Assembly: GCA_015057115.1 (NCBI GenBank) | Contig: SVEZ01000010.1 | Span: 1 to 64,000, forward strand | Direction of reading: 5' to 3' | Source: Lachnospiraceae bacterium | GTDB lineage: Bacteria > Bacillota > Clostridia > Lachnospirales > Lachnospiraceae | DNA length: 64,000 nt | In this document: piece by piece, positions 40,704-49,016 of the stretch | Position numbering within the stretch: the stretch's first letter is position 1 | Layout of the letters: each line of letters opens with the position of its first letter | Program-made: the position numbers and the translations under genes | Notes under the pieces: generated by a model | What the model was told of the DNA's origin: nothing | The model's database searches: none | The model's input: only the letters and a program-made list of their open reading frames with translations

Positions 40704-42899
40704 TTATACCGTCTGAATACTGCGCAGACTTTCTTTTTTTGCCGGACGGAATAACAGATATCCAAAAGCAACAACAATAAGCAATGCTACTGCCGTTCCG
40801 ATACCGAATCCTCCTCCGGTAAAGAAAGTTCCCAACTGGTAAATGCACAAGGACACTGCATAAGCTAAAATACACTGATATCCGATAGCAAACCAGAACC
40901 ATTTTGCATTATTCATTTCTCTCTTGATGGCTCCCATAGCTGCAAAGCATGGAGCACATAATAAGTTAAATACCAGGAATCCGTATCCGGCAATCGGTGT
41001 CATAACTGCTGCCAGGCTACCCCAGTACTCGTCACCGGCCTCTGCCACTTCACTGCCAAAGCCAAAGAGCATACCAAAGGTTGCCACTACATTTTCTTTT
41101 GCAACAAGACCGGTAAAAGCGGCTGCCGCCATCTTCCAGCCTTCTCCACCCTGGGTCCATCCAAGAGGTGCAAAAATAACTGCCACAGCGCTTCCCACTT
41201 TTGCAAGAATTGAGCTGTTCAACTGTGTTTCCTGATCAATCATGCCAAAGCTTCCGTCTACCCATCCAAAGCTCATTAAGAACCATACCACGATGGTAGA
41301 AAGTAAAATTACGGTTCCCGCCTTTTTAATGAAGGACCATGCGCGTTCCCACATACTGCGAAGCACATTGGTTACTGTCGGCATATGGTAAGCCGGAAGC
41401 TCCATAACGAAGGGAGCCGGATCGCCAATAAACATTTTTGTCTTTTTCAAAATGATACCGGAACAAATAATAGCCGCTACGCCTACGAAATAGGCACTTG
41501 TAGATACCCAGCCTGCATTTCCGAAAAATGCTCCGGCAATCAAACCGATAATCGGTAATTTTGCTCCACAAGGAACAAAGGTGGTAGTCATAATGGTCAT
41601 TTTCCGGTCGCGGTCACTTTCGATGGTACGGGATGCCATAATTCCCGGAATACCACATCCGCTTCCGATTAACATCGGAATGAAGGATTTACCGGACAAT
41701 CCAAAGCGGCGGAAAATCCGGTCCATAATGAAGGCAACCCTCGCCATATATCCACAGGCTTCCAAAAAGCCAAGGAAGATAAACAGCACCAGCATCTGTG
41801 GAACGAATCCAAGTACAGCTCCCACACCGGCTACGATACCATCATTAATCAGTCCTGTCAACCAGTCTGCACAGTGAATGCTTTCCAGGAAATCCCCTAC
41901 TACAGCATGCAATCCCGGAATGAAGGGACCGTAATGGAATAAATGCCAACCATCGTCTCCCAACAGCTGGTCATTCGCCCAATCTGTTGCCAGGGTTCCT
42001 ACCGTGGTAACAGACACATAGTATACAATATACATTACCAATGCAAAAATCGGTAATGCCAGAACACGATGGGTAAGAATTTTGTCCAGCTTATCGGAAA
42101 TAGTCAGGGTATTCGCACTGTTCTTTGTTATGCAATCCTTAATAATTCCGGATATGTAGGTATACCGCTCGTTGGTAATGATACTTTCCGTATCATCGTC
42201 AAAGGCATCCTCCAATTCCTTGATTTCTGCCTCAACATCCGGTGCGGAATACCGCATCTGCTCCTGAATTTTTTCGTCTCTTTCCAATAACTTAATTGCA
42301 AAAAAGCGCTTCTGTTCTTCATCACAGACACCATTTAACTTATTTTCTACTTTAGCAATGACATCTTCCGCTTTTTCACTAAACTGATGAATTGCAGGGG
42401 TCTTTGCTTTATTCTGAGCAAGAGCCACCGCCTTCTCAGCCGCTTTTTCAATACCGGTACCCTTTAATGCAGAGATTTCCACAACCTCGCAGCCCATGGC
42501 CTTCTTTAACTTGTCTAAATAAATCTTGTCCCCATTTTTATTAACCAGATCCATCATGTTAACGGCCATAATTACCGGAATACCCAGTTCCATAATTTGA
42601 GTGGTCAGGTATAAGTTTCTCTCAATATTGGTACCATCAACAATATTTAAGATTGCATCCGGTTTTTCATTGATAAGATAGTTACGGGCAACCACTTCTT
42701 CCAAAGTATAGGGAGATAAAGAATAGATACCCGGAAGGTCCATAATAATAACATCCTTATGACCTTTTAACTTTCCTTCTTTTTTCTCCACCGTAACTCC
42801 CGGCCAGTTTCCTACAAACTGGTTGGAACCCGTCAAAGCGTTAAAAAGCGTTGTTTTACCACTGTTCGGGTTTCCTGCCAAAGCTATTTTTAATGACAT
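40704..42899 (-). CDS. feoB: Ferrous iron transport protein B
   Basis: GNPNSGKTTLFNALTG, DLPGIYSLSPYTLEE G-domain plus gate helices. Confidence 0.98.
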   Translation of the reverse strand: MSLKIALAGNPNSGKTTLFNALTGSNQFVGNWPGVTVEKKEGKLKGHKDVIIMDLPGIYSLSPYTLEEVVARNYLINEKPDAILNIVDGTNIERNLYLTTQIMELGIPVIMAVNMMDLVNKNGDKIYLDKLKKAMGCEVVEISALKGTGIEKAAEKAVALAQNKAKTPAIHQFSEKAEDVIAKVENKLNGVCDEEQKRFFAIKLLERDEKIQEQMRYSAPDVEAEIKELEDAFDDDTESIITNERYTYISGIIKDCITKNSANTLTISDKLDKILTHRVLALPIFALVMYIVYYVSVTTVGTLATDWANDQLLGDDGWHLFHYGPFIPGLHAVVGDFLESIHCADWLTGLINDGIVAGVGAVLGFVPQMLVLFIFLGFLEACGYMARVAFIMDRIFRRFGLSGKSFIPMLIGSGCGIPGIMASRTIESDRDRKMTIMTTTFVPCGAKLPIIGLIAGAFFGNAGWVSTSAYFVGVAAIICSGIILKKTKMFIGDPAPFVMELPAYHMPTVTNVLRSMWERAWSFIKKAGTVILLSTIVVWFLMSFGWVDGSFGMIDQETQLNSSILAKVGSAVAVIFAPLGWTQGGEGWKMAAAAFTGLVAKENVVATFGMLFGFGSEVAEAGDEYWGSLAAVMTPIAGYGFLVFNLLCAPCFAAMGAIKREMNNAKWFWFAIGYQCILAYAVSLCIYQLGTFFTGGGFGIGTAVALLIVVAFGYLLFRPAKKESLRSIQTV

Positions 42900-42927
42900 C
42901 TCTCATTCTCCTTTTTCTATAACTTTC

Positions 42928-42943
42928 GTTAGCTTTCACTAAC
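42928..42943. promoter_or_regulatory. GTTAG-N6-CTAAC operator (box 1)
   Basis: GTTAGctttcaCTAAC between feoA and feoB. Confidence 0.75.
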
Positions 42944-42960
42944 CTGCATTCAAAAAAAAT

Positions 42961-43182
42961 TTACTCTACTTCAATCATTTCGGCATCCGCCTTACGCAGG
43001 GACAATTCATATCCACGAACAGTAACTTCTACCGGATCTCCTAAAGGAGCCAGCTTACGGATATATACTTCCACTCCCTTCGTGATTCCCATGTCCATAA
43101 TTCTGCGTTTCACTGCGCCTTCCCCATGAAGTCTTTTTACCTTCACAGTGCTCCCTACCGGGACGTTTCGTAATGTGTTCAT
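42961..43182 (-). CDS. feoA: FeoA family protein
   Basis: SH3-like FeoA sequence VKRRIMDMGITKGVEVYIRKLAPLGDPVEVTVRGYELSLR. Confidence 0.93.
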   Translation of the reverse strand: MNTLRNVPVGSTVKVKRLHGEGAVKRRIMDMGITKGVEVYIRKLAPLGDPVEVTVRGYELSLRKADAEMIEVE

Positions 43183-43220
43183 TCTCTTCCTTCCTCCTAG
43201 AAAAACCTCTGTCAGGTCAT

Positions 43221-43433
43221 TTAGACCATAATCTTATTGGCCATATCCTTACCGATGGCAACGCGAGAGTCCTTGATGTTCACAATCATATTGCCTCCGT
43301 TTTCGGACACAACGCTGACAGTGCTTCCTACCACAAACCCTAAGCTTTCAAGGAATCTGCGGATTTCTTCTTTTCCTCCCACCTTTTTGATGGTACTTAC
43401 CTCACCCGGTTTACTCATTGTTAATGGCATACT
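43221..43433 (-). CDS. Second FeoA family protein
   Basis: FLESLGFVVGSTVSVVSENGGNMIVNIKDSRVAIGKDMANKI. Confidence 0.9.
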   Translation of the reverse strand, partial: SMPLTMSKPGEVSTIKKVGGKEEIRRFLESLGFVVGSTVSVVSENGGNMIVNIKDSRVAIGKDMANKIMV

Positions 43434-43486
43434 CATCACCTCTCACTTCCCTCTTGACTATCCAGAGATATATTTATCTTACTACC

Positions 43487-43518
43487 GTTAGTATACCCTA
43501 ACATTTGTAAGTTGTCAA
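43487..43518 (-). promoter_or_regulatory. feo operon promoter with overlapping GTTAG-N6-CTAAC operator (box 2)
   Basis: Minus TTGACA (43513-43518) - 17 - TATACT (43490-43495); box GTTAGtataccCTAAC at 43487-43502. Confidence 0.85.
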
Positions 43519-43595: not shown

Positions 43596-44219
43596 TTATC
43601 TTGTAATAATTTTACATTCCTGCTCCGTAACCCTCTGTGTACCCACTGGTCTGTCAAATGCGGACATTTTCGGTATGAAATGTTCTTCTGCCACCCGCAT
43701 CACCATATATCCAATGAGGGTACCGAGTACGTTTAGCATAAGATCATCTACATCGAAGAGTCTGTATGAACCTTTGAATAAGAAATATAATCCTGTAAGC
43801 TGTCCAACCTCAATAAATGCTGTAAATCCGAAACCTGCCAATGCAGTTTCTTTCAGATTAAATCCAACACCATACTGTAAAAACATTCCCAAAGGAATGG
43901 TCATAACAATATTGAACAATACCTGACACATAACACGAACAACGGAATCCTCCATCAGGTCTGCTATAAAATGAAACGGGATAATCTGATACTGAATACT
44001 AAGTGCAGCCGCCTGCTCCATCGTCGGAAGTGGAAAAAATACCAGTTCCACTACACAGCAGAGATACATTACAAACATCTGCCAAGCTGCAATTTCTACA
44101 AAATTGACCTTCTTTGAAACCATCGTCTTAATCCCCATGATTACGAATGTAGCAACCATACCATACTCGCCATAAATTCTTAATCCTTCAATGATGCTAT
44201 CCATCCATGCTGTATTCAT
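43596..44219 (-). CDS. VanZ-like family membrane protein
   Basis: TIPLGMFLQYGVGFNLKETALAGFGFTAFIEVGQLTGLYFLFKGSYRLFDVDDLMLNVLGTLIGY. Confidence 0.9.
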   Translation of the reverse strand: MNTAWMDSIIEGLRIYGEYGMVATFVIMGIKTMVSKKVNFVEIAAWQMFVMYLCCVVELVFFPLPTMEQAAALSIQYQIIPFHFIADLMEDSVVRVMCQVLFNIVMTIPLGMFLQYGVGFNLKETALAGFGFTAFIEVGQLTGLYFLFKGSYRLFDVDDLMLNVLGTLIGYMVMRVAEEHFIPKMSAFDRPVGTQRVTEQECKIITR

Positions 44220-44266
44220 AATAAAACCTCCTTATCTTCGGTAACGCTTTACATCTTTCATGATTA

Positions 44267-44371
44267 AAGTATAAGGGGTTTTACTTTTTTTCTAAATCGA
44301 ATCCTCTTACATTAAGGGGGACACTTCTTACATTCGTGTAATATATTCCATTGGCACAAAATTGGCACAAA
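44267..44371 (-). promoter_or_regulatory. vanZ promoter region with direct repeats
   Basis: -10 TATACT at 44268-44273; cttacatt repeated with 21-bp spacing (44306, 44327); tandem 11-bp ATTGGCACAAA x2 (44350-44371). Confidence 0.5.
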
Positions 44372-44383
44372 CCGTTTCTCCCA

Positions 44384-44521
44384 AAACAAAAAGCTTATGT
44401 CGCCAGTGACATAAGCTCTTTGTGGATAAAAGATATGGGAAATTTTAGGTTATTACTAATCTTCTATATGAAGATAAGGAGGGTTCAGTAAGTCTACTTT
44501 GGGTTAGTTATGACTTACTGT
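44384..44521 (-). ncRNA. Candidate small regulatory RNA (about 138 nt) with C-rich anti-Shine-Dalgarno seed
   Basis: Minus promoter TTGACA (44550-44555) - 16 - TATACT (44528-44533); operator-like GTTAGttatgaCTTAC 44503-44518; terminator AGCTTATGTC/GACATAAGCT + TTTTTGTTTT; no ORF. Confidence 0.55.
44503..44518. promoter_or_regulatory. Near-match operator (box 3) at candidate sRNA start
   Basis: GTTAGttatgaCTTAC, one mismatch to GTTAG-N6-CTAAC. Confidence 0.5.
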
Positions 44522-44575
44522 AATTAAAGTATACCATATTACTGGGAATTGTCAACTACTATTTTCATTTTTTTA

Positions 44576-44995
44576 CTATTTTGCAAGTGTTGCTCCCAAT
44601 ACTTTACACTCCTCTAATACAGAATCATCCGGTGCGCTGTTAGCCATCACGATTCCAAGAATCTGTGCCCCTGTTCCGGAAGTTCTCGCTTCCCATTCAC
44701 GCATCCACTGTCCGTCTCCCCAACCATAAGAGCCAAACAGTGCCACTTTTTTCCCCGAAAGAGAATTCTCTACCGCTGAAAACATTGGTTCAAACTCACT
44801 CTCCTCCAAGACTTCTGCTCCCATGGCAGGGCAACCAAAAGCGATCGCATCAAATTCTGCCACATTCCCGGCTGCAAATTCACACCCAAATATGGTCACA
44901 TCAGCACCTGCTCCTACTGCCCCTTCTTTCACGGCATTTGCCATTATCTCCGTGTTTCCTGTACCACTCCAAAACACTACTGCTACTTTACTCAT
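44576..44995 (-). CDS. Flavodoxin
   Basis: VAVVFWSGTGNTEIMANAV FMN-phosphate loop; FGSYGWGDGQWM. Confidence 0.95.
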   Translation of the reverse strand: MSKVAVVFWSGTGNTEIMANAVKEGAVGAGADVTIFGCEFAAGNVAEFDAIAFGCPAMGAEVLEESEFEPMFSAVENSLSGKKVALFGSYGWGDGQWMREWEARTSGTGAQILGIVMANSAPDDSVLEECKVLGATLAK

Positions 44996-45493: not shown

Positions 45494-45865
45494 ATGGTCA
45501 TGAGAACTTTTGTAAATGAATCTTCAGAAGATTACTTGGAAACCATTCTTATTTTAAGTAAGAAACTCCCGGTTGTGCGAGCAGTGGACATCGCCAACGA
45601 AATGGGCTTTAAGAAATCCAGCGTCAGCGTAGCTATGAAGAATCTACGGGAACGCAACCATATAACCACCACCGAGGCGGGCTTTATCTATTTAACAGAT
45701 GAAGGAATGCAGATTGCCGAGCGGGTTTTGGAGCGTCACGAGTTTTTGACTCAGTGGCTTACTTCCATGGGCGTTCCGGAGGAGATTGCAGCAGAAGATG
45801 CCTGCAAGTTGGAACATGTGTTGAGTCACGAAAGCTACGATGCTATTAAGAAGACAACCAAATAA
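45494..45865 (+). CDS. DtxR/MntR family metal-dependent transcriptional regulator
   Basis: SSEDYLETILILSKKLPVVRAVDIANEMGFKKSSVSVAMKNLRERNHI; DxxR-type N-terminus and metal-binding C-terminal helices. Confidence 0.93.
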   Translation: MVMRTFVNESSEDYLETILILSKKLPVVRAVDIANEMGFKKSSVSVAMKNLRERNHITTTEAGFIYLTDEGMQIAERVLERHEFLTQWLTSMGVPEEIAAEDACKLEHVLSHESYDAIKKTTK

Positions 45866-45872
45866 CGCACAT

Positions 45873-45905
45873 AAGGAGTTCCCTTCGGAACTCCTTACTT
45901 TTTAT
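45873..45905. terminator. Convergent intrinsic terminator
   Basis: AAGGAGTTCCcttcGGAACTCCTTacttttt. Confidence 0.9.
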
Positions 45906-48226
45906 TCTACGTTTTTCAGTGCCAAATCCATTGGCACTTTTTTAATCTTTGAAAGTTCGATAATGGCAACTACCCCATAGGCAACAATTCCTAAGATAAG
46001 CATTTTTACAAAAACACCTGTATCCAACCATACCGGCAACCAGCCCTTCATCTTCTGACGCAACATGGTATGCCAGATAACCGTAATGGCTTCTGTATTG
46101 ATGGGTAATGCCACCAACATGGACAAAAGCACCATTATACTGGTTGGTAAAATGTAAAGTCTTGCTATCTCGGTGCCACTGTATCCCAAAATCTTTGCCA
46201 TGGAAATAGACTGAGCATTTTTCTCAATAATGGTTTTACTTAAAAGATAAATCATTACCACAAAGATTAACATGGCAAAACCGTCAACCAAATACATCAA
46301 TTCTCCCATGGACACCTTTAGCTGACGACAAATCTTGCTTAAGGCATCTTCATCCAAAATACTGCCAATATATTTTTCATTCAAATCCGTAAGCTTTTCA
46401 TCGGAAAAGTACCCACCAAACATATCACTTCCCAAATCAAAGGTTTGATTCAGGTGCTTTCTTGTCATAAAAACATACAGCCCCGTATCATAATCCCAGA
46501 TTCCCGTGACCTTGAATTTATAGACGGTATCTTCATATTTTTCCTTTAATCGAATGGTATCTCCTATTTCCAATTCAAATTTTTCCGCATAAGCACTGGA
46601 TACGTACACGTCCTCATCCGTAAGCTTTAGGGGCACATACTTACTGTCCGGTTCAATTCCGTAGAATAGAATTTCTTCCTTCATGGCATCGGTTTTATAC
46701 GTCTCCAACGTATATGCGCTGAATTTTTCCGCAGAGGAATTATCCGTTTCCACTCCTTCGGAAAATCGCATGTACTTCAGCAGTTTATCCACGGAAAAAT
46801 CCTCTCCGGATAAGCTGGGTGGCATTTTCAACAGATACTGGTATTTGCAAAACATATTTTCATGAATCTGATTCTGATAATGATCCATAATGGAAGGTAA
46901 CATCATTCCAAATAAAAGTAACATATAGGAAATCAAAATTCCCAGAAACAGCACTGCGTAATGGAACCGGTTTTGCAAAAGCACTCTTAGGCGAAATCTT
47001 GAAAAGAAGGGAATCCCCGGTGAAAGGGATACAGCTTTTTTCTTTTTGCTTCTGCTTAGTTCCCTACGCAAAAACTGTAACGGGCTCAACCTCATTTTCC
47101 GACTCAGGATTATCAGGTTAATCAGAATCATAAGCAAAATCGGCACCAACGTGGTTAATATAAAGGCTTCTCCGTTCCATATAGTCACATAGGTAGGTAG
47201 AGAATAACTACCGTAATACATGTCTACACACACTTCTTTTAGCAGGGTATATCCTAATATGTTACCAATCAGGGCACTAATAAGAGTCACCAAAATCGGT
47301 GCCACCAGATAGTGTCCGATAAGCTCTGCATTGGTAAAACCGCTGGCTTTCAGGGTTCCGATTACTCCTGCTTCCTTTTCAATGGTGTTACTGGTGGTTA
47401 ACGCAAATACAAATGCCATGATTACCATGATAATGTAAAAGAGTACCGTCATCATGGCCCGATCATTTCCCAAATCTTCTCCGGTAAACTGAATGGCCTG
47501 ATTCTGCTGTCTTGGAACAAAATCAGAAAGCTCTGTCTGGTCATTAATCACCTTCATCAAGTCTTCAGCTCTCTTATTTTCTTCTTTCTCGTTTGCTGAC
47601 GCCTTCTCCCAGCACCAGCTGTAACAATATACTTTGTTCTTTTTTGTCAGGGTCTTAAAGGTCTTCTCGTCCACCACCCCAACTCCGAACTTAATAGCGT
47701 CAAACATGGAATCATTACTGTTTTCAAAAAGTGCACTATAATCCGACAACGCCACGTACCCGCTGATACGATAGTTTTTTCCATCAAGCTTTATGCTGTC
47801 TCCTACTTCTAAATGATTATTATCCGCAAACATTCTGTCAATTGCAATTTCGTCCGCATTTTGAGGAAAATTTCCATTCATAAGACAGGCTCTATTCACT
47901 TTATCCCTCATGGCAAAAATACGAACCTTAAAGTTATTTCCGGACTTTTTTTCCACATAAGGCAGATTGTAAAGGGTTACTCCCTCTTTTTCAATCCGCT
48001 TTCTTGCACTTTTTTCCAATGGTTCTTCCGTGATGAAGTGCCCATCTTCCACATTGTATTTGGTAAAGCTTTCATTATAAGCTGCAATCATACTGCCATC
48101 TGCCACCAGATATCCGGAAATAAAAGAAATGGTGGCTATCATCAGGATAAAGATTACCAGATACTTACCTTTATCTCCGGATATTTCCCGAAGGATTCGT
48201 TTTCTCAATGGATTTTTCTTCTTCAT
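45902..48226 (-). CDS. ABC transporter permease with two FtsX-like regions
   Basis: FtsX/MacB-type TM segments; ITTSNTIEKEAGVIGTLKASGFTNAELIGHYL; start taken at MKKKNPLRKRIL. Confidence 0.9.
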   Translation of the reverse strand: MKKKNPLRKRILREISGDKGKYLVIFILMIATISFISGYLVADGSMIAAYNESFTKYNVEDGHFITEEPLEKSARKRIEKEGVTLYNLPYVEKKSGNNFKVRIFAMRDKVNRACLMNGNFPQNADEIAIDRMFADNNHLEVGDSIKLDGKNYRISGYVALSDYSALFENSNDSMFDAIKFGVGVVDEKTFKTLTKKNKVYCYSWCWEKASANEKEENKRAEDLMKVINDQTELSDFVPRQQNQAIQFTGEDLGNDRAMMTVLFYIIMVIMAFVFALTTSNTIEKEAGVIGTLKASGFTNAELIGHYLVAPILVTLISALIGNILGYTLLKEVCVDMYYGSYSLPTYVTIWNGEAFILTTLVPILLMILINLIILSRKMRLSPLQFLRRELSRSKKKKAVSLSPGIPFFSRFRLRVLLQNRFHYAVLFLGILISYMLLLFGMMLPSIMDHYQNQIHENMFCKYQYLLKMPPSLSGEDFSVDKLLKYMRFSEGVETDNSSAEKFSAYTLETYKTDAMKEEILFYGIEPDSKYVPLKLTDEDVYVSSAYAEKFELEIGDTIRLKEKYEDTVYKFKVTGIWDYDTGLYVFMTRKHLNQTFDLGSDMFGGYFSDEKLTDLNEKYIGSILDEDALSKICRQLKVSMGELMYLVDGFAMLIFVVMIYLLSKTIIEKNAQSISMAKILGYSGTEIARLYILPTSIMVLLSMLVALPINTEAITVIWHTMLRQKMKGWLPVWLDTGVFVKMLILGIVAYGVVAIIELSKIKKVPMDLALKNVE

Positions 48227-48227
48227 A

Positions 48228-48926
48228 CTACCACTCCAGTTCTTCCGCTGTAATCTTTGCTGTGTTACGCACATCCTCACGAATCATGCCGTCACGCAAA
48301 CGCAACATCCTGTCTGCCATGAGCCGAATGGCATCATTGTGGGTTACCATCAATACGGTATTGCCGTATTTCTGATTCACGGTTTCGATTAGTTTTAAAA
48401 TCTCCTTGGAGGTTTTGTAATCCAAAGCACCTGTCGGCTCGTCGCATAGTAAAATATCCGGATTTTTCACAATGGCCCGGCCAATTGCACATCGCTGCTG
48501 CTGTCCTCCCGACAGCTGATTAGGTAGCTTTTTCCGATGTTCATAAAGTCCCAGGGTTTTCATCAAGTCTTCCAATGGTAAGGGCTTATCGCTTAAATAG
48601 GCACCCACTTCAATGTTTTCCTGTACCGTCAGATTGGGGATTAGATTATACATCTGAAAAACATATCCGAGATGATTTCTTCGATACTGGGTAAGTTGTT
48701 TGTCATTCATTTGCTCCGTTCTCTCTCCGGCAATTAAAATGCTTCCTTCGCTGGCCCGATCAATTCCTCCCACAATATTTAAAAGTGTGGATTTTCCGGA
48801 GCCGGATGGCCCCAGCATAACGCAGAATTCACCTTTTTCCAATTTCAAGTCTATTCCGTTTAACACATCCACTCGACTGTCTCCTTCGCCGAAGTGCTTT
48901 TTTATCTGCTGTAATTCCAAAAACAT
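48228..48926 (-). CDS. ABC transporter ATP-binding protein (LolD/MacB type)
   Basis: GPSGSGKSTLLNIVGG, LSGGQQQRCAIGRA. Confidence 0.95.
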   Translation of the reverse strand: MFLELQQIKKHFGEGDSRVDVLNGIDLKLEKGEFCVMLGPSGSGKSTLLNIVGGIDRASEGSILIAGERTEQMNDKQLTQYRRNHLGYVFQMYNLIPNLTVQENIEVGAYLSDKPLPLEDLMKTLGLYEHRKKLPNQLSGGQQQRCAIGRAIVKNPDILLCDEPTGALDYKTSKEILKLIETVNQKYGNTVLMVTHNDAIRLMADRMLRLRDGMIREDVRNTAKITAEELEW

Positions 48927-48963: not shown

Positions 48964-48979
48964 GTTAGCATTATCTAAC
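48964..48979. promoter_or_regulatory. GTTAG-N6-CTAAC operator (box 7)
   Basis: GTTAGcattatCTAAC. Confidence 0.8.
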
Positions 48980-48987
48980 TTACTTTC

Positions 48988-49016
48988 AGTATAGTTAGAT
49001 ATCGCTAACCTGTCAA
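48988..49016 (-). promoter_or_regulatory. ABC exporter promoter with operator (box 8) filling the -35/-10 spacer
   Basis: Minus TTGACA-ggttagcgatatctaac(17)-TATACT; box GTTAGatatcgCTAAC at 48994-49009. Confidence 0.85.

Follow-up and report, generated by a model that had tools for sequence, protein, structure and literature searches.

In Bacillus subtilis, the iron-repressed sRNA FsrA carries a C-rich motif directed against Shine-Dalgarno sequences and blocks the synthesis of iron proteins (PMC9410917). The staphylococcal sRNA IsrR, conserved at the level of the genus, is built of stem-loops, exposed C-rich regions and a terminator, and targets Fe-S enzymes (PMC9410917), while the iron-sparing sRNA MrsI of Mycobacterium tuberculosis has a site for IdeR, a repressor of the DtxR family (PMC8628891). 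The papers that we searched describe no iron-sparing sRNA from Lachnospiraceae or from other strictly anaerobic Clostridia. The energy metabolism of these bacteria runs on ferredoxin and [FeFe]-hydrogenase.

The locus described here lies on contig C11 of a Lachnospiraceae genome, G000 (2.62 Mb, 96% complete), within the 64-kb stretch of DNA that was analysed, which we call the window. The candidate sRNA unit, read from the minus strand, lies between the flavodoxin gene and vanZ, and the features to which we refer below are as follows.

44528-44555, minus strand: sigma-A promoter, TTGACA-16-TATACT with an extended TG (11/12 match); TTGACAATTC...TGGTATACTT is identical in genome G006.
44503-44518, minus strand: DtxR-type operator GTAAGTCATAACTAAC, at about +4 to +19, which also gives an arm of the 5' stem; the G006 counterpart is GTAAGTTACAACTAAC.
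44384-44522, minus strand: predicted non-coding sRNA of ~139 nt, with ends placed from the promoter and the terminator.
44486-44520, minus strand: 5' hairpin CAGTAAGTC/GACTTACTG of the predicted fold.
44470-44482, minus strand: C-rich segment CCUCCUUAUCUUC, the exact complement of the vanZ RBS, with CCUCC open and UCUUC in a hairpin.
44421-44446, minus strand: conserved 26-nt element AAAAUUUCCCAUAUCUUUUAUCCACA, the proposed main seed, identical in G006.
44386-44423, minus strand: intrinsic terminator of the predicted fold, a 16-bp stem followed by TTTGTTTT.
44576-44995, minus strand: flavodoxin (Pfam PF00258), in the same regulon neighbourhood.
45503-45865, plus strand: DtxR/MntR-family regulator (Pfam Fe_dep_repress and Fe_dep_repr_C), presumed to act on the operators.
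40704-43439, minus strand: feoB, feoA and a further feoA-like gene; operators lie at 43487-43502 and 42928-42943.
43596-44219, minus strand: vanZ (Pfam PF04892), the target proposed in an initial annotation of this DNA.
44268-44296, minus strand: separate vanZ promoter, TTTAGA-17-TATACT, conserved in genome G002.

The promoter, the operator-like box, the 5' stem, the small hairpin and the terminator all lie on the minus strand where the initial annotation had placed them. The predicted fold of the sRNA has an MFE of -40.1, compared with -16.1 +/- 3.2 for shuffles (z -7.6); in it the small hairpin, AUCUUC/GAAGAU, stands between two open stretches, and the first 23 nt of the 26-nt element are ~80-100% unpaired. 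The terminator was missed by a terminator scan because its T-run lies partly within the stem. The sRNA holds no ORF, its sole ATG falling in the terminator stem. No Rfam family reached the gathering threshold in the 64-kb window, where permissive thresholds gave chance-level matches only, and none was found for the G006 homolog; the initial annotation had called for such a search and had claimed no homology. From these sequence features we take the transcription unit on the minus strand to be real.

The operator GTAAGTCATAACTAAC is the palindrome GTTAGTnnnnACTAAC with one mismatch. Allowing up to two mismatches, the window contains seven such sites against 1.58 expected (maximum of four in 100 shuffles), one each by feoB, feoA and the sRNA and two each by an HMA gene and an ABC transporter, so that all of them are close to feoAAB, flavodoxin, HMA and ABC-transporter genes. 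Elsewhere in G000, operators precede the genes for a ZIP transporter and for a surface protein, a second gene of the DtxR family together with a divergent operon, and a gene that we take to be DUF3793-like. The presence of feo and flavodoxin in the regulon points to iron as the metal. The regulator encoded at 45503-45865, which is MntR-like in NCBIfam yet below the cut-offs, presumably binds these operators, and could sense manganese instead of iron. By inference, metal control of the sRNA is well supported, and a metal-repressed sRNA is highly likely at this locus. The earlier description of a discrete, metal-regulated, C/U-rich sRNA with a layout like that of FsrA or IsrR is thus supported, the metal regulation on independent grounds, its box being the operator of a whole feo/flavodoxin/ZIP regulon next to a DtxR-family gene. 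Two further arrangements were observed among the operators. The site at 42928-42943 lies between feoA and feoB, within an apparent operon; and two DtxR-type operators at 48964-49009 precede the genes for an ABC ATPase (48228-48926) and an FtsX-like permease (45902-48280), a similar arrangement of operator and ABC gene occurring in G002 and G006.

A BLAST search of 60 genomes gave one other match to the locus, in G006, which belongs to the same genus. Retained in G006 are promoter plus operator, at 77% over 64 nt, and the 26-nt 3' element, identical to that of G000; they stand in an unrelated genomic place with different neighbours. Between operator and 3' element it carries an insertion of ~375 nt that folds into hairpins with C-rich loops; in its predicted fold the operator segment again forms a 5' stem, but not the one of G000, and half of the seed is predicted to be paired. 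In this long form of ~460 nt (L003, positions 1540-2018 of contig C33 of G006) the hairpin loops hold CACCUCCC, GCCUCC, CCCC and CUCC. The element was not found within three mismatches in the other genus members, G001-G005, three of which are only 62-77% complete. Among 299 genomes of the family there were five other one-mismatch matches, all outside an operator context and most of them apparently coding. The GTDB species gave 18 matches, of which one was recognised as a homolog (taken to be the G006 locus); five of the other 17 were inspected and not recognised as homologs, the rest coming from unrelated phyla. We therefore rejected the idea that the 3' element is a widespread motif, as the matches inspected outside G006 lack operator context or recognisable homology. 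Conservation of the seed rests on two sequences, those of G000 and G006. The initial annotation had made conservation of seed and terminator in relatives a check on its proposal; the 3' element is conserved, in G006 only, and the CCUCC segment that it had regarded as the seed is not kept there.

That segment had been read as a seed complementary over 13 nt to the vanZ RBS, and the complementarity is indeed exact and unique in the genome: CCTCCTTATCTTC (44470-44482) matches GAAGATAAGGAGG (44227-44239), no other perfect copy exists in the 2.62 Mb, and the match extends a generic Shine-Dalgarno core by 6 nt. With the isolated sRNA segment, vanZ ties for first among 397 genes. These results favour an sRNA that mainly silences its neighbour vanZ through CCUCCUUAUCUUC, but we consider such a role improbable, given that UCUUC, which makes up five of the 13 matching bases, is ~89% paired in the predicted sRNA fold, that vanZ ranks only 33rd of 361 when both RNAs are folded, that G006 has the sRNA with neither vanZ nor the CCUCC segment, and that G002 keeps the vanZ leader and RBS with no sRNA upstream. 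The CCUCC stretch is therefore unlikely to be the defining seed, vanZ being unremarkable after folding and the conserved accessible segment lying 25-60 nt further 3'. In our reading the sRNA is not built around vanZ, though it may act on this gene as a secondary target.

It is also conceivable that the unit, being on the same strand and ~165 bp upstream of vanZ, is a leader or attenuator of that gene, with transcription starting at the sRNA promoter and either terminating or reading through into vanZ, as the initial annotation had itself considered. We judge this to be very improbable: a promoter block of its own precedes vanZ and is conserved in G002, although the upstream gene there encodes an aldo-keto reductase, and the supposed leader recurs in G006, which has no vanZ. 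A leader role or terminator read-through was rejected on the strength of this conserved separate promoter. At the vanZ promoter (44305-44334, minus strand) AATGTAAGA occurs twice as a direct repeat, with a period of 21 bp, also conserved in G002; the repeats look like a response-regulator site, so that vanZ is probably regulated separately.

We turn now to the 26-nt element, the complement of which resembles a Shine-Dalgarno sequence followed by AUG-GGA. A pattern search of the whole genome found the start of a KorD-type ferredoxin, GGAGGAAGGATATGGGAA, in both G000 and G002. Target tests drew on pattern searches and sampled genome stretches, and compared all 24 Fer4 genes found in G000 with a background sample of ~330 G000 genes. 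The mean duplex energy was -12.2 kcal/mol for Fer4 genes versus -9.3 kcal/mol for background (MWU p=7e-4), nine of the 24, among them KorD, RnfC, IorA and hydrogenases, ranked with the top 5% relative to background (Fisher 9e-6), and 0 of 200 seeds shuffled at constant composition equalled the difference, although these p-values are somewhat optimistic in that the Fer4 class was picked after two matches had already been seen. Leaving out the two first-seen targets gave p=0.004, again with 0/200 shuffles. When a 19-nt window was slid along the sRNA (31 windows), the Fer4 signal peaked on the conserved element, the one segment with strong enrichment, so that conservation and target fit agree, and the signal persisted when both RNAs were co-folded (p=7e-4). 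No Fer4 signal was detected in G004 (p=0.43), which is 99% complete and has neither the sRNA nor this operator type. G006 shows a weak enrichment (p=0.03 for seven Fer4 genes, with 37/200 shuffles doing as well), and RnfC ranks 4/190 there. The korD duplex is -23.4 in G000 and G002, and -11 to -12 in G001, G004 and G005. Complementarity of the seed to the translation starts of Fe-protein mRNAs is thus found in G000 and is weak in G006.

Besides the KorD-like ferredoxin (-23.4), the best targets comprise a PAS-containing hydrogenase-like protein, HydG, HydE, HydA of group A6 and a monomeric FeFe hydrogenase, as well as a 4Fe-4S aldo-keto reductase and a second Fe-S aldo-keto reductase, IorA, a glutamate-synthase-like Fe-S flavoenzyme and RnfC; HydG, HydE, HydA-A6 and the monomeric FeFe hydrogenase are identified by NCBIfam. 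Radical SAM genes as a class showed no enrichment (p=0.44) and HydF, RnfB and PFOR-like genes were not among the hits, indicating that the target set is selective. The CCUCC segment was also tried as a seed for Fe-S targets and rejected, as it gave no enrichment (p 0.1-0.2). Two other matches to the seed were noted. Of the 190 G006 genes sampled, the one that fits the seed best encodes a Nif11-domain protein (L221, positions 190-480 of contig C67), with GGATAAAAGATATGGAGG at the start; and a second FeoA-FeoB-like gene of G000 (L108, contig C15, position 91282) matches the seed in its start region (AGATAAAGGATATGGGAC), which is unexpected for an iron-sparing RNA.

The Fe-S enrichment might instead be a by-product of AG-rich, AUGGGA-type starts in highly expressed genes, with a metal-regulated sRNA having its true targets elsewhere. 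Shuffled seeds do give a small positive difference (0.46 kcal/mol), the G006 signal is not seed-specific, and ATGGGA starts occur in 5/24 Fer4 genes versus 9/332 others. We nevertheless consider this explanation unlikely, since no shuffle out of 200 reached the value observed in G000, G004 has no signal, and the peak falls on the conserved element.

Our conclusion is that the locus probably encodes an iron-repressed, trans-acting sRNA of ~139 nt, the 3' element of which would block translation of Fe-S mRNAs, iron sparing through this element being the best-supported function on the sequence evidence. The sequence elements, their conservation in one relative and the target enrichment are observed, and from them we infer transcription, the identity of the repressor, the metal, pairing in the cell and repression. 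Once loaded with iron or a related metal, a DtxR-family repressor would occupy the operator (about +4 to +19) and block the sRNA. When iron is scarce, the sRNA would be produced along with FeoAB, flavodoxin and the ZIP transporter, protected by its 5' hairpin and terminator. The open 3' element UUUCCCAUAUCUUUUAUCC would then pair over the Shine-Dalgarno sequence and AUG(GGA) of mRNAs for Fe-S proteins (KorD-type ferredoxin, [FeFe]-hydrogenases, HydE/HydG, IorA, RnfC and ferredoxin-linked oxidoreductases) and stop their translation, so that iron would be spared and flavodoxin would replace ferredoxin. There is a precedent for the proposed physiology in Clostridium difficile, in which flavodoxin goes up and hydrogenase goes down at low iron (PMC6311696). 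More tentatively, and with somewhat less than even confidence, we suggest that a Lachnospiraceae genus has an sRNA family not described before, which is controlled by DtxR instead of Fur and shuts down hydrogen metabolism as a module ([FeFe]-hydrogenases and the maturases HydE and HydG), along with ferredoxin-linked oxidoreductases. The family would have two forms, one of 139 nt and a longer one of ~460 nt in which additional hairpins with C-rich loops are inserted between operator and seed. A coupling of hydrogen production to iron supply through an RNA would tie the H2 output of anaerobic communities directly to iron availability, and would mean that iron-sparing sRNA regulation was invented independently once more, under a different repressor.

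We regard the putative sRNA as analogous to FsrA, IsrR and MrsI, and do not claim homology. With FsrA it would share the Gram-positive logic of an iron-repressed sRNA, an anti-Shine-Dalgarno seed and iron sparing; however, FsrA is controlled by Fur and aided by FbpABC, whereas the sRNA here has the DtxR-type operator GTTAGTnnnnACTAAC and a U/C-rich seed that extends to the start codon, and no Rfam-level similarity was found. Stem-loops, C-rich stretches, a terminator, Fe-S targets and genus-level conservation are common to IsrR and our candidate, but IsrR has Fur boxes and three C-rich regions, and no sequence relation was found between them. MrsI, likened here by description only, is actinobacterial, with a 6-nt seed and the targets hypF and bfrA, yet it too combines a site for a DtxR-family repressor with iron sparing. 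RyhB and PrrF are proteobacterial and depend on Fur and Hfq, whereas the sRNA here is without an Rfam match, but the physiological logic would be the same.
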